A DNA stretch of 64,000 bases from Nitrosomonas communis. Lineage in GTDB: Bacteria; Pseudomonadota; Gammaproteobacteria; Burkholderiales; Nitrosomonadaceae. Position numbers and translations under genes: made by a program. The stretch covers positions 62,001 to 126,000 of the forward strand of contig NZ_FOUB01000001.1 of NCBI RefSeq assembly GCF_900114745.1, read 5' to 3'. The notes under the pieces were generated by a model. The model was not told where the DNA came from and did no database searches. It was given only the letters and a program-made list of their open reading frames with translations. Each line of letters opens with the position of its first letter. Position 1 is the first letter of the stretch. Of this stretch, positions 31,976 through 36,914 are shown in pieces.

Positions 31976-33076
31976 CTACTTTGAAACAGCGAGCATCCTT
32001 TCAAGTGTCAATCTGGCAAGTTTTGCTTCATGAACCGGTACCTTGATTTGGTTGACTACATTACCTGCTACCAGATTTTCCAATGACCATGCCAAATGCT
32101 GAGGATCAATTCGTGCCATGGTTGAACACATGCACACCATGGGTGACATGAACTGAATAATTTTTTCCTGAGATTTGAATTCTTCAGCAATACGTCCAAC
32201 CAGATTCAATTCGGTACCCACCAACCAGCGTGTTCCTGCTTTGGCTTCACGAATGGTATTAATAATGAATTCAGTGGAGCCGACATAATCTGAAGCTTTG
32301 CAAACTTCAAAACTGCATTCTGGGTGCGAAATGACTAAACCTTCAGGATATTGATTGCGAAATCGCAGGATATGTTGTGGCTGGAACATCTGATGCACTG
32401 AGCAATGCCCTTTCCATAGCAAGATCTTGGCTTTTTTGATTTGCTCTTCGGTCAATCCACCCATGGGCTCATCAAAATCCCAAACAGGCATTTGTTCGAG
32501 AGGGAGGTCCAATTTGTAGCCACTCCAGCGTCCTAGATGCTGATCAGGAAAAAATAATACTTTTTCCCGCTGGGCAAACGACCATTGCAGAATTTTAGTG
32601 GCATTACTGGAGGTACAGACAATGCCGCCATGCTCTCCACAAAAAGCTTTTAAATCAGCACTCGAATTGATGTAGGTTACAGGTGTGATGACTTCATCTG
32701 GATCAAGTATTTCAGCTAATTCACGCCAAGCTCTTTCTACTTTGGAGAGATTAGCCATATCAGCCATTGAACAACCCGCTGCGAGATCAGGCAGAATAGC
32801 AATCTGCTCCGCGCTTGAGAGGATGTCTGCAACTTCTGCCATAAAATGCACGCCACAAAAAACCAGATAATCAGCATCCGTTTTTGCCGCGAGATAAGAC
32901 AGTTTTAAAGAATCTCCCGTCAGATCTGCATGCCGATAGACATCTGCTCGTTGATAATGATGCGCCAGGATAACAGCATGTTTCCCTAATTTTTCTTTGG
33001 CAGCAGTAATACGTTGAGCACAGGTTTCATCCTGCAATAGTTCGAAGTTTTCAAAGTCGATAGCGTTTGCGGGCAT
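31976..33076 (-). CDS. nadA: Quinolinate synthase
   Basis: NadA condenses iminoaspartate with dihydroxyacetone phosphate to quinolinate in NAD synthesis and carries a 4Fe-4S cluster. The 366-residue protein starts with KLGKHAVILAHHYQRADVYR at about residue 30 and has candidate cluster cysteines in VFCGVHFMAEVADIL, SHPECSFEVCKASD and VCMCSTMARIDPQH. HHYQ and GCSMADMA belong to the substrate-binding part. No nadB is in the window. The gene has its own upstream AT-rich region. Confidence 0.94.
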   Translation of the reverse strand: MPANAIDFENFELLQDETCAQRITAAKEKLGKHAVILAHHYQRADVYRHADLTGDSLKLSYLAAKTDADYLVFCGVHFMAEVADILSSAEQIAILPDLAAGCSMADMANLSKVERAWRELAEILDPDEVITPVTYINSSADLKAFCGEHGGIVCTSSNATKILQWSFAQREKVLFFPDQHLGRWSGYKLDLPLEQMPVWDFDEPMGGLTEEQIKKAKILLWKGHCSVHQMFQPQHILRFRNQYPEGLVISHPECSFEVCKASDYVGSTEFIINTIREAKAGTRWLVGTELNLVGRIAEEFKSQEKIIQFMSPMVCMCSTMARIDPQHLAWSLENLVAGNVVNQIKVPVHEAKLARLTLERMLAVSK

Positions 33077-33439
33077 GGTTATTTCAAAATTTGATTAGGA
33101 AATGTATTAACATAATCATATTGTGGCAGGGATTCAAGTTTAAAGAGCATAAAGCATAAAAATCTCAAATAGTATCCTTGATGCTTTTTTCTATCTAAAG
33201 AACACTTACCAACAATAAAAAACAGCATTTTTGACTGTTTGGTTGATTAGAGTGTGACTTTGATATAATTATCCAGCCAAATTAATTTTAAGCGCTTGGA
33301 TGACCCCTTTGCTGGATAAAACTAAAAGTGTTCTGCATAAAACGGTTAAGCTTTTTGTGGCTAACGAATATAAATTATTATTTCCAGACAATTTTCTCGT
33401 TATTTTGTTCATTACTGTTTCAGTAATAGGCAAAGGAGA
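33077..33439. other. Intergenic region with the probable lpt promoter
   Basis: This AT-rich divergent region of about 360 bases lies between nadA and lptC. A plus-strand -10 like TATAAT is at 33264-33269 with a possible -35 TTGATT at 33243-33248 (15-base spacer, shorter than ideal); TTGACT at 33231 is too far away. A 55-codon plus-strand frame from ATG 33300 (MTPLLDKTKSVLHKTVKLFV) overlaps the lptC leader and is not known to be a gene. The kdsC/kdsD genes often found before lptC are not present. Confidence 0.4.
33243..33269 (+). promoter_or_regulatory. Candidate sigma-70 promoter of lptC-lptA-lptB
   Basis: TTGATT and TATAAT are spaced 15 bases apart, about 200 bases before lptC. The -10 match is perfect and the spacing is two bases short of optimal. 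No other strong candidate was seen in the gap. Confidence 0.35.
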
Positions 33440-33469
33440 TTGTCATGGAAAAAAAAGTGGTATCGTGAG

Positions 33470-34090
33470 ATGATCCATCGTCTACTTCCAGGCCCTATTG
33501 CTCTTTTGGGGATACTTGCATTGTTAACATTATGGCTGGATCAAGCGATTCAATATCCTAGAACCCGTGAAGATGACGATTCAAATCATCAACCTGACTT
33601 TATTATTGAAAATCTTTCGGGTGTCCAAGTAGCTTATGATAAAGCACTTCAGCTTTTTTTTTCCGCAGATGTGATGACTCATTATCCGGCAGGAGATATG
33701 TCTTATTATGAACAGGTTGATTTTGCCCGTTTGCAACCGGATAAACCGTTGGTACGTATAAGTGCTGATTATGCTGAGTTTGATGACGGTAAAGATATCT
33801 ATCTCAAGGAAAACGTATTCATTATTAGAGAAAAAGACTTAGATAGGGTGACAATGCGTACCGAATTTCTGCATCTGATCCCTGATGCTGAAATTGCAAA
33901 AACAGATCAGCCTGTAACGCTGGTAAAGATGAATATGATCGTAAATGCGGTAGGGATGGAGCTGAATGATCGAACAGAACAAATCGATCTGAAATCAAGG
34001 GTGAAAGTGCAAGTGAACAAAATACATCAGAGTACTGATCGATCTTCGAATAAAAAGCCGCTGACCCAACTGAACCATCGTAAAAAATGA
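33470..34090 (+). CDS. lptC: LPS export protein LptC
   Basis: LptC is the bitopic inner-membrane protein that takes LPS from LptBFG and passes it to LptA. The product of about 206 residues has one N-terminal membrane helix (LLPGPIALLGILALLTLWLD) and a beta-jellyroll periplasmic part with DFIIENLSGVQVAYDKA and RISADYAEFDDGKDIYLKEN. The start is unclear. The in-frame TTG 33440 has no room for a Shine-Dalgarno. A good AAAGGAGA serves ATG 33445, which reads only MEKKVVS and stops one base before ATG 33470 of this frame. Start 33470 by reinitiation is therefore chosen. The lptC stop overlaps the lptA ATG. Confidence 0.84.
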   Translation: MIHRLLPGPIALLGILALLTLWLDQAIQYPRTREDDDSNHQPDFIIENLSGVQVAYDKALQLFFSADVMTHYPAGDMSYYEQVDFARLQPDKPLVRISADYAEFDDGKDIYLKENVFIIREKDLDRVTMRTEFLHLIPDAEIAKTDQPVTLVKMNMIVNAVGMELNDRTEQIDLKSRVKVQVNKIHQSTDRSSNKKPLTQLNHRKK

Positions 34091-34641
34091 ATGTATTTTT
34101 TTTCGTCTTTTTGATTATTAGCACACTGTTCTCGGAACACATTCTGGCAGAACGTGCTGATCGTAATAAACCGATTCAGATAGAATCAGATAGTGCTACA
34201 GTCGAAGACTATAAACGTAAGGATAACTTTCGCATAAGCACGTTTATAGGTAACGTTATTTTCACTCAGGGAACGCGTATCATTCGAGCAGATAAGGTGA
34301 TCATAAAAGAGGATCTCAAAAGCTTCCATTATGTGACCGGTTACGGAGATCTTGTCAGTTTCCGGGAGAGACGTGATAGTGTTGACGAATATATTGAGGG
34401 TTGGAGTCAACGCGTAGAATATGATGAAAAAACCAATAAAATCGAGTTATTTGGCAAGGCGCAGTTAAAGCGGGGGGAGGATGAAGTGCATGGTGACTAT
34501 ATTTCTTATGATATTATGCGGGATTTCTTCGAAGTTATAAGCCGCAAGGAGAAAAAAGCTCAAGAAAAATCAGAAAACAGAGTGAGGGTGATTATTCAGC
34601 CTAAAACAAAGTCTCCCCAAACAACAGATACTGGAGAATAG
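34087..34641 (+). CDS. lptA: LPS transport periplasmic protein LptA
   Basis: LptA forms the periplasmic bridge that carries LPS to LptDE. The 184-residue protein begins with a signal peptide ([19 protein letters not shown]). The OstA-like beta-jellyroll follows: [40 protein letters not shown] and [19 protein letters not shown]-like tracts, the last read as [23 protein letters not shown] 34087 overlaps the lptC stop codon (ATGA), indicating translational coupling. lptB follows after about 40 bases. Confidence 0.93.
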
Positions 34642-34679: not shown

Positions 34680-35402
34680 ATGAGCGTACTTAGAGCCGAT
34701 CATTTGATGAAGAGCTATAAATCTCGTACAGTAGTCCGGGATGTATCCTTTTCTATCGGTAGTGGCGAAGTTGTTGGTTTGCTTGGTCCTAATGGAGCGG
34801 GCAAAACCACTTGTTTTTATATGGTAGTGGGGCTGATACCAATAGGCAATGGTGAAATTCATTTGGATGACCGTGACTTGAGCAATATGCCGATTCATCA
34901 GCGTGCGCGCCTGGGCTTGAGTTATTTGCCTCAGGAAGCTTCCATTTTTCGACGCCTCTCGGTTGAAGATAATATCCTGGCAGTACTGGAGTTGCAGAAT
35001 TTTAATGCTGCTGAGACTCGGCAACGACTAGATCATTTGTTGCAAGATTTGCATATTACTCATCTGCGGGAGAATCTGGGAATTAGCCTATCGGGTGGTG
35101 AGAGGCGGCGTGTAGAGATTGCGCGTGCTTTGGCCACAAAACCAAGTTTTATTCTTTTGGATGAACCCTTTGCAGGTGTAGATCCAATCGCAGTCATGGA
35201 TATCCAGAGAGTGATTGGCTTTCTCAAAGAACGTGGGATTGGCGTGTTGATCACTGATCATAATGTGAGAGAAACATTAGGAATTTGTGATCGCGCCTAT
35301 ATTATCAGCGAAGGGACCGTACTTGCCAGCGGTAAACCTAGCGAAATCATAGATAATGAGCGGGTAAGGGAAGTTTATTTGGGAGAGCACTTCCGACTTT
35401 AA
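34680..35402 (+). CDS. lptB: LPS export ABC transporter ATP-binding protein LptB
   Basis: LptB is the cytoplasmic ATPase of the LptBFG transporter that extracts LPS from the inner membrane. The 240-residue protein shows Walker [20 protein letters not shown] (about residue 36-54), the Q-loop in [13 protein letters not shown], the signature [15 protein letters not shown] and Walker [20 protein letters not shown] with the switch histidine in ITDHNVRET. Its length and order after lptC-lptA are standard. rpoN follows after 54 bases. Confidence 0.96.
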
Positions 35403-35456: not shown

Positions 35457-36914
35457 ATGAAACCTACTCTTCATCTTAAATTAACTTCCAGTCTTAAGCT
35501 TACGCCACAGTTGCAACAGTCAATTAAATTGCTGCAACTTTCTACCATTGAGTTAAATCAGGAAATAGAGCGTATGTTGCAGAATAATCCTCTGCTGGAA
35601 TTAAGCGATAAGACTGATTATGAACAGGTTCTTGCAGAAGATTTCTCGCTCTCGTTACCCTTAGATAGGACTTCGTCCATTGAGTTGAATGGCGCGCAAC
35701 ATCAAGAGAAGGATGATGAATTGATTTTATCTTCAAATGAAGAGACCTATTGGCTTGGTGATTATGAAATCTTTTCCAGTCATCGAGAAAGCGAGGAAGA
35801 TGAATGGGATTTTACCCAACAGATGATCAATCCTCCCACTTTGCGTGAACATCTCATTATGCAGATCAGCTTGAGCCAGATCAACGAGCGTGACCGTCAA
35901 ATCGTGAGGATGTTAATCGAAAGTCTGGATGATGATGGTTACCTTGCGCAGGACCTGCAAGATTTATTTGAGATGTTGCCAGCGGAGTTGGACATTCATC
36001 TGGCTGACTTGCAGACAGCGCTTAAATATTTGCAGCAATTGGATCCACCCGGTTTAGGTGCACGCAATTTGCGAGAGTGTCTACTTTTGCAGCTACAAAC
36101 ACTTCCTGAAGAAACTCCTTGTCGTCAAGAGGCGCTTTTGCTTGTGGAGCACGATCTTGAGACACTTGCTTCAAAAGATTTTAAACAGATTAAGAAATTG
36201 TTGCATTGTGATGATGAATGCCTGCGTTCCGTGCAGCAACTTATTACTCAATTAAATCCCAAACCTGGTAGTACGTTCAATTCAACTGTCTCGCGTTATG
36301 TCATACCTGACGTAATTGTGACTAAGCTTAAGGGAACATGGATAGCCAAACTCAACCCTGAATCAATTCCTCGTCTTAGTATTAATCAATTTTATGCTGA
36401 TATATTAAAGCGTGATCGAAATGATTCGACTCAAATGTTAATGAGTCAGCTTAATGAAGCCAAATGGATACTTAAGAATATTCAACAACGTTCTGAAACG
36501 ATTTTTCGAGTATCCACTATCATAGTAGAGCACCAGCAAGCTTTTTTTGAGCATGGCGCAGTTGCAATGCGTCCGCTTGTCATGCGGGAAATTGCAGAAG
36601 CTCTAAATTTGCATGAATCTACCGTGTCACGTGTTACCACACAAAAATTTATGCATACACCACAAGGCATATTTGAACTCAAGTATTTCTTTGGAAGCCA
36701 TGTCGCAACCGATAGCGGCGGGGCCTGCTCTGCTATTGCAATTCGTACCTTAATCAAACAATTGATACAAGGTGAGGATCAGAAAAAGCCGCTTACTGAT
36801 AATCGGATTTCCGAGATTCTGGCTGAGCAGGGGATTATTGTTGCACGCCGCACTGTTGCAAAATACCGTGAATCAATGCAAATTCCCCCAGCTAATCTTC
36901 GTAAAGGGTTTTAA
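35457..36914 (+). CDS. rpoN: RNA polymerase sigma-54 factor
   Basis: Sigma-54 directs RNA polymerase to GG/GC-type promoters that need enhancer-binding ATPases, often nitrogen and pilus genes. The 485-residue protein has the glutamine/leucine-rich region I (LTPQLQQSIKLLQLSTIELN), an acidic region II, a core-binding region with QLDPPGLGARNLRECLLLQL, a helix-turn-helix in ALNLHESTVSRVTTQKFM and the RpoN box ARRTVAKYRE near the end. It follows lptB, as usual, but hpf and ptsN, which commonly come next, are absent here. Confidence 0.95.
   Translation: MKPTLHLKLTSSLKLTPQLQQSIKLLQLSTIELNQEIERMLQNNPLLELSDKTDYEQVLAEDFSLSLPLDRTSSIELNGAQHQEKDDELILSSNEETYWLGDYEIFSSHRESEEDEWDFTQQMINPPTLREHLIMQISLSQINERDRQIVRMLIESLDDDGYLAQDLQDLFEMLPAELDIHLADLQTALKYLQQLDPPGLGARNLRECLLLQLQTLPEETPCRQEALLLVEHDLETLASKDFKQIKKLLHCDDECLRSVQQLITQLNPKPGSTFNSTVSRYVIPDVIVTKLKGTWIAKLNPESIPRLSINQFYADILKRDRNDSTQMLMSQLNEAKWILKNIQQRSETIFRVSTIIVEHQQAFFEHGAVAMRPLVMREIAEALNLHESTVSRVTTQKFMHTPQGIFELKYFFGSHVATDSGGACSAIAIRTLIKQLIQGEDQKKPLTDNRISEILAEQGIIVARRTVAKYRESMQIPPANLRKGF

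Follow-up and report, generated by a model that had tools for sequence, protein, structure and literature searches.

The leader of lptC

How do ribosomes reach the start codon of lptC, a gene of LPS export, an essential envelope function, when its own Shine-Dalgarno (SD) sequence is weak and the only good one nearby serves a seven-codon frame that ends one base before its ATG? In the 64,000-nucleotide stretch of Nitrosomonas DNA analyzed here (the window), an SD-like sequence, AAAGGAG, is read directly at 33432-33438 on the + strand and is followed 6 nt later by an upstream mini-frame (33445-33468, + strand). The ATG of this frame (33445-33447) leads into GAA AAA AAA GTG GTA TCG and a TGA (33466-33468), which corresponds to the peptide MEKKVVS. 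A single G at 33469 separates the TGA from the ATG of lptC at 33470 (lptC, LPS export protein, 33470-34090, + strand). The initial annotation had placed both frames at these positions, which hold. Its SD span likewise fits AAAGGAG, whereas the eight-letter sequence that it gave for this site, AAAGGAGA, would run to 33439 and reflects a one-base slip. Its statement that the only good SD belongs to the mini-frame agrees with duplex energies of −8.9 kcal/mol for the mini-frame versus −3.8 kcal/mol at the lptC ATG, which were computed with a sequence that we take to be the 16S tail.

The downstream frame is assigned to LptC by profile match (PF06835, E 6.7e-35; TIGR04409, above cut-off), and its start is set by aligned starts. 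In a scan of genome contigs, the sole named relative, Nitrosomonas sp. Nm34, has an LptC that is 91% identical to that of the window. On the + strand, lptC is followed by lptA (34087-34641), which overlaps it by four bases (ATGA), and by lptB (34680-35402) and rpoN (35457-36914), both assigned by profile match. Upstream lies nadA (31976-33076, − strand), a divergent neighbor in the position held by kdsC in other families of the order. A TATAAT at 33264-33269 (+ strand) probably serves as the −10 box for the promoter of the lptC operon; a strict sigma-70 scan detected no + strand promoter upstream of lptC. Since 73 of 81 genus genomes carry a TATAAT in the 300 nt 5′ of lptC, an lptC 5′ leader of ~190 nt is likely. 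The leader scan revealed no terminator-like site in 33060-33520, and Rfam gave no match at gathering score in 32900-34200; two matches below threshold (E 0.64 and 0.075) were regarded as chance hits. With neither a terminator nor a known regulatory RNA in these intervals, an attenuator leader peptide is not supported.

A proposed route to the lptC start

Based on the sequence of this leader and its counterparts, our judgment leans modestly toward the seven-codon frame being a ribosome-delivering mini-ORF, or leader cistron, for lptC. A ribosome would bind AAAGGAG and initiate at ATG 33445, and a heptapeptide would be made whose sequence would be irrelevant. The ribosome would then halt at TGA 33466-33468, stay on, and restart one base downstream, at the ATG of lptC. 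The lptC start, with its weak SD alone, would rely on translation of the mini-frame. Three elements of this proposal are directly observed: the leader anatomy, the weak lptC SD, and the recurrence of the arrangement in relatives. The leader anatomy includes two hallmarks of a reinitiation leader, namely a short ORF with its own initiation signals (AAAGGAG, a 6-nt spacing, an ATG, seven codons, and a duplex energy of −8.9) and a stop within reach of the main start (TGA-G-ATG).

Such an arrangement is rare in the window. Among its 2423 ATGs (both strands), 21 are preceded, at a distance of one base, by the stop of a mini-frame that opens with ATG or GTG; two of these 21 show a loose SD match and one a strong SD, the latter being the lptC mini-frame. 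Across the source genome (4.42 Mb in 195 contigs), the pattern GGAG-N4-9-ATG-N6-36-TRA-N-ATG, limited to GGAG, ATG, TAA, and TGA, gave 50 matches versus 24 for a reversed control pattern. Three of the 50 are in frame; besides the lptC case, these comprise two in which the final ATG does not begin a frame of at least 50 residues. At a frequency of roughly one in 2400 ATGs, we estimate that chance alone would produce 1-2 cases of this kind in each genome. The weight of the argument therefore rests on conservation in relatives rather than on the single case.

This estimate is one of the points in favor of the main alternative, a real if lesser possibility: the frame may be there by chance. In that case, lptC would start alone with little SD help, perhaps via the A-rich stretch, and the upstream SD, ATG, and TGA would be accidental and may even compete with it. 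The comparisons with relatives bear on this alternative from both sides.

Conservation in the nearest relatives

The five nearest relatives of the window genome (G000) are G018 (the same genome as Nitrosomonas sp. Nm34, L032, and entered a single time), G101, G120, G051, and G011. In G120, the leader reads TAGGAG and then ATG AGA AAA AAA ATG GTG CCG TGA G ATG (MRKKMVP); in G051, it reads TTAGGGAA and then ATG GGA AAC AAA GTA GTA TCG TGA G ATG (MGNKVVS). These two leaders and that of the window thus have the SD, the ATG, the seven-codon length, and the TGA-G-ATG junction in common, while the peptides MEKKVVS, MRKKMVP, and MGNKVVS differ. The aligned LptC identity to the window protein is 79% for G120 and 65% for G051, and the difference at fourfold sites is 0.25 and 0.40, respectively. 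The 25 nt 5′ of lptC contain 3 mismatches between the window genome and G051, and are better kept than the fourfold sites; with G120 there are 5 mismatches, and the stretch is not clearly better kept. The duplex energies of the mini-frame and of lptC, respectively, are −8.9 and −3.8 in the window genome, −7.3 and −2.8 in G120, −5.1 and −1.5 in G051, and −5.5 and −3.4 in G011, where the frame ends as an ATGA overlap with lptC.

The two closest relatives, G018 and G101, have a common 2-nt deletion, and the mini-frame ATG is lost, with TTA in its place. Two possible starts remain: a TTG that directly adjoins the SD and, 13 nt upstream of lptC and three codons before the stop, a GTG. The SD duplex of this GTG in G018 is −3.7, and in G101 the SD is altered. 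These two genomes and G105, which is without a mini-frame, do without the ATG, in line with a chance frame. A chance frame, however, is harder to reconcile with G120 and G051, which share the frame length, the ATG, the SD position, and the stop.

The arrangement across the genus

The genus set comprised 85 genomes, of which 81 were used: G004, G053, and G115 were without an lptC match, and G003 matched only from residue 78. Kept among the 81 were G011, whose lptC is split over two contigs, and G017, whose lptC is in two pieces with stops. The lptC start was the ATG nearest the aligned position, picked by a script, and nadA starts were usable in 73 of the 81 loci. In the LptC tree, the window group and its sister group form one branch of 18 genomes (support 100/100, midpoint root). 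A stop lies one base before lptC in 16 of these 18 (exceptions G102 and G104), and the use of three different stop codons, TGA, TAA, and TAG, at this position also argues against a chance frame. An in-frame ATG or GTG mini-frame ends there in 13 of the 18, including all eight members of the sister group (G036, G001, G045, G057, G012, G021, G038, and G017). Reinitiation at lptC, which the initial annotation had put forward, thus gains support from the SD, ATG, length, and TGA-G-ATG kept in G120 and G051 and from a one-base stop that recurs across the clade.

In the sister group, an SD of −5 or better is present at 1 of 16 mini-frame starts checked (G021, −8.6) and absent at the other 15, which counts against ribosome delivery. 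G036 and G001 (L006 and L008) have a chain of three frames separated by single bases: 14 codons, two codons, and then lptC. The two-codon frames read ATG TTT TAA or ATG TCT TAA, and the first (14-codon) start is without an SD. As a separate observation, a nine-codon frame, MKRxxFxNG, crosses the lptC start in G020, G022, G016, and G008 (L031, L037, L042, and L051) and ends 7 bases past its A.

Over the whole genus, 16 of 81 loci have a mini-frame whose stop lies one base 5′ of lptC, versus 1.4 expected from dinucleotide shuffles; the same test at nadA gives 0 of 73, with 1.5 expected. A stop one base before the ATG is found at 22 of 81 lptC starts, at 3 of 73 nadA starts, and at 3.7% of all window ATGs. 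A stop directly against the ATG is found at another 22 of 81 lptC starts, at none of 73 nadA starts, and at 4.9% of all window ATGs. When positions from −8 to +12 are taken together, the effect is less marked, with stops at 44 of 81 lptC starts versus 27.7 expected and at 21 of 73 nadA starts versus 17.2 expected. After weighting by 25 sequence clusters, only a small excess is left, with counts of 3.1 versus 0.4 expected for stops exactly one base away and 11.2 versus 6.4 expected for stops within 3 nt, a control that is harsh and imperfect because single-linkage chained 36 genomes into one cluster. The mini-frame label changes four times among 44 labeled tree rows (37 rows uncounted); the rows are thus not independent and represent few events, a further point against the proposal.

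The weak SD of lptC extends throughout the genus, which a chance frame would also accommodate. The median duplex is −1.9 at lptC versus −3.1 at nadA, and an SD of −4 or better is present at 4 of 81 lptC starts versus 22 of 73 nadA starts; at −5 or better, one start of each gene remains (1 of 81 and 1 of 73). Finally, in the portion of the survey of leader genes by Korolev et al. (2016, PMC4833913) drawn on here, there is no peak at distances of 2-4 bp, which again is in keeping with a chance frame.

A quite improbable alternative, which rests on modeled folds, grants that the mini-frame is translated and proposes that its ribosome would open a hairpin that covers the lptC start, which a second ribosome would then use. 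The consensus fold of six leaders, in which the lptC AUG is within a stem, and a mean unpaired probability of 0.32-0.47 at this AUG are consistent with such unfolding; a fresh ribosome, however, would find no good lptC SD. A loop-out hairpin that would carry the SD to lptC was also considered and, at only −2.1 kcal/mol, is not favored.

The lptC start and the A8 run

The mini-frame contains a run of eight A residues (33449-33456, + strand), for which run lengths were read in the window genome and its relatives. A8 is also present in G120, in the same phase, and A6 is present in G018, G101, and G011; G051 shares the seven-codon frame but lacks any A run of at least 6. As the initial annotation had pointed out, the loss of one A (A7) would, read on paper, fuse the two frames into MEKKWYREM-LptC, and a run shorter by one A would likewise join the mini-frame and lptC in G120. 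The alignments speak for separate frames. All 81 genus loci have an ATG at most four codons away from the position to which ATG 33470 aligns. In all five nearest relatives, the lptC frame is closed upstream by an in-frame stop (TGA at −12 in G018 and G101; TAG at −12 in G051; TGA at −24 in G120, overlapping the ATG of the mini-frame; TAG at −30 in G011), with no ATG, GTG, or TTG between this stop and the lptC ATG. Hence MEKKWYREM-LptC, the fused form, is not what the group normally encodes and, judged from these sequences, ATG 33470 is the true lptC start. An assembly error, with A7 as the normal length, is rejected on the same grounds and is not needed to explain the A8, since A8 recurs in G120 and the G051 frame is free of homopolymers.

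Slippage at the A8 run had been suggested as a source of variation in lptC expression. On paper, the mini-frame is fused to lptC at run lengths of A7 and A10, stops one base short of lptC at A8, and at A6 and A9 has a TGA that overlaps the lptC ATG (ATGA); the stops of both other frames are placed around this ATG by TGAGATGA. As A7, A8, and A9 all reach lptC, slippage could hardly switch the gene off and would at most alter the first residues of LptC. This outcome and the presence of A8 in one of the five nearest relatives both weigh against the suggestion. Programmed or phase-variable slippage was rejected: the run length and the alternative frame are not conserved, and a change in run length does not, on paper, switch the product. 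The A8 run is taken as incidental, and a homopolymer before a gene need be neither an assembly error nor a switch. The least probable alternative, that the true start is that of a fused frame (TTG 33440, or ATG 33445 after the loss of one A or a +1 slip, with A8 as an error or slippage site), can draw on an lptC frame that is open upstream as far as TTG 33440 and on the A7 readings above, but is very improbable given a TTG only 1 nt from the SD, the upstream stops in the five relatives, the A8 of G120, and the homopolymer-free frame of G051.

Separately, five A/T runs of at least 8 are present in the 64-kb window, and three of them lie within a 650-nt stretch at lptC-lptA: A8 (33449) before lptC, T9 (33654) in lptC, and T8 (34096) in lptA. 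Random placement would give this clustering with a probability of ~0.003, a post hoc value for a region that is also A+T-richer. The T9 of lptC is T6 in G018, G101, G120, G051, and G011, and the T8 of lptA is kept in G018, G101, and G120.

Relation to kdsC

The position of lptC relative to kdsC in other families of the order may suggest an origin for the arrangement. Of 33 such genomes in which lptC was matched, the best 20 were compared, and each carries upstream of lptC a frame whose tail, assessed by eye, is KdsC-like. Relative to the lptC start, the stop of this frame lies at −1 to +6 in 15 and further upstream in 5. When the KdsC model was applied to two of the 20, both matched (E 3.5e-53 or better). 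In Nitrosomonas, nadA was found in 74 of 81 loci and is divergent in all 74; it is missing in seven, six of which have short fetched upstream stretches. A KdsC domain is present elsewhere, in a frame of ~400 residues, in G000, G018, G120, and G051; in the window genome it is located away from lptC (G000:C127:11893-12342, L119). With the KdsC model, G036 and G020 gave no match above the cut-off, only matches below it, which raises the question of how KDO synthesis is completed in these two genomes. An origin of the mini-frame from a kdsC tail is not supported, because the KdsC-like tails (ending, for example, in APYLK or AQYLS) are unlike MEKKVVS.

The genus-wide weakness of the lptC SD is consistent with a start once made for coupling whose partner has gone. 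More tentatively, and with a history that we regard as less likely than not, lptC could be a coupled start that has outlived kdsC. Elsewhere in the order, lptC would restart ribosomes arriving from kdsC; Nitrosomonas would have lost kdsC at this site, and a strong SD would never have been regained. Individual lineages would then have recruited tiny leader frames with the sole role of carrying a ribosome to a stop like the one formerly provided by kdsC: seven codons here, and two-codon frames, even chained ones, in the sister group. The mini-ORF thus possibly replaces the lost kdsC coupling. If the ribosome-delivery proposal and this history are true, translation of an essential envelope gene begins by way of a heptapeptide frame so short that ordinary annotation would miss it. 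The genus would then also provide a natural series, running from other families with kdsC upstream, through loss of kdsC with a mini-frame present, to loss of the mini-frame, that lets one ask how a translationally coupled gene survives the loss of its partner.

Comparison with known systems

Among open-licence PMC papers, nothing was found that joins lptC, kdsC, and translational coupling, nor anything on Nitrosomonas with lptC and kdsC; for lptC with an upstream open reading frame, only trypanosome work was found. A chromosomal leader ORF that is coupled to an important gene is known in uof-fur of E. coli. The lptC mini-frame is likewise a chromosomal leader ORF before an important gene; uof, by contrast, is the longer of the two and overlaps fur; it is also targeted by a small RNA.

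Short upstream ORFs that raise translation by reinitiation have been described by Korolev et al. (2016, PMC4833913) and reviewed (PMC12548453), and the comparisons here refer to the portions of these sources that were consulted. Like the leader ORFs of the survey, the lptC mini-frame has its own start signals, a peptide that is apparently irrelevant, and a stop near the main start. The leader-gene peak reported there for Proteobacteria lies at 10-13 bp, and in four other bacterial groups the peak is strongest for UAG and weakest for UGA. The lptC case differs from this peak: its distance is 2 by that counting, its stop is TGA, and lptC is without a good SD of its own. In studies cited by the review, coupling was unaffected by spacings between −4 and +3 and as wide as +25 nt. 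As far as these sources go, the delivery of ribosomes by a short frame has already been proposed and reviewed, and the lptC case therefore belongs to a known kind. Its interest lies in the gene, lptC, in the weak SD, and in the possible replacement of kdsC.

The stop and start that lie a few bases apart also resemble those of overlapping gene pairs with termination-reinitiation in the consulted part of Huber et al. (2019, PMC6728339), and the downstream start, here that of lptC, would depend on the upstream frame as it does in those pairs. In contrast to them, the partner of lptC is a seven-codon frame rather than a gene, and a one-base gap takes the place of the overlap. A parallel within the order is the kdsC-lptC junction of other families, where the lptC start likewise sits at the stop of an upstream frame; Nitrosomonas differs in having no kdsC there and, in the 18-genome clade, a mini-frame instead.
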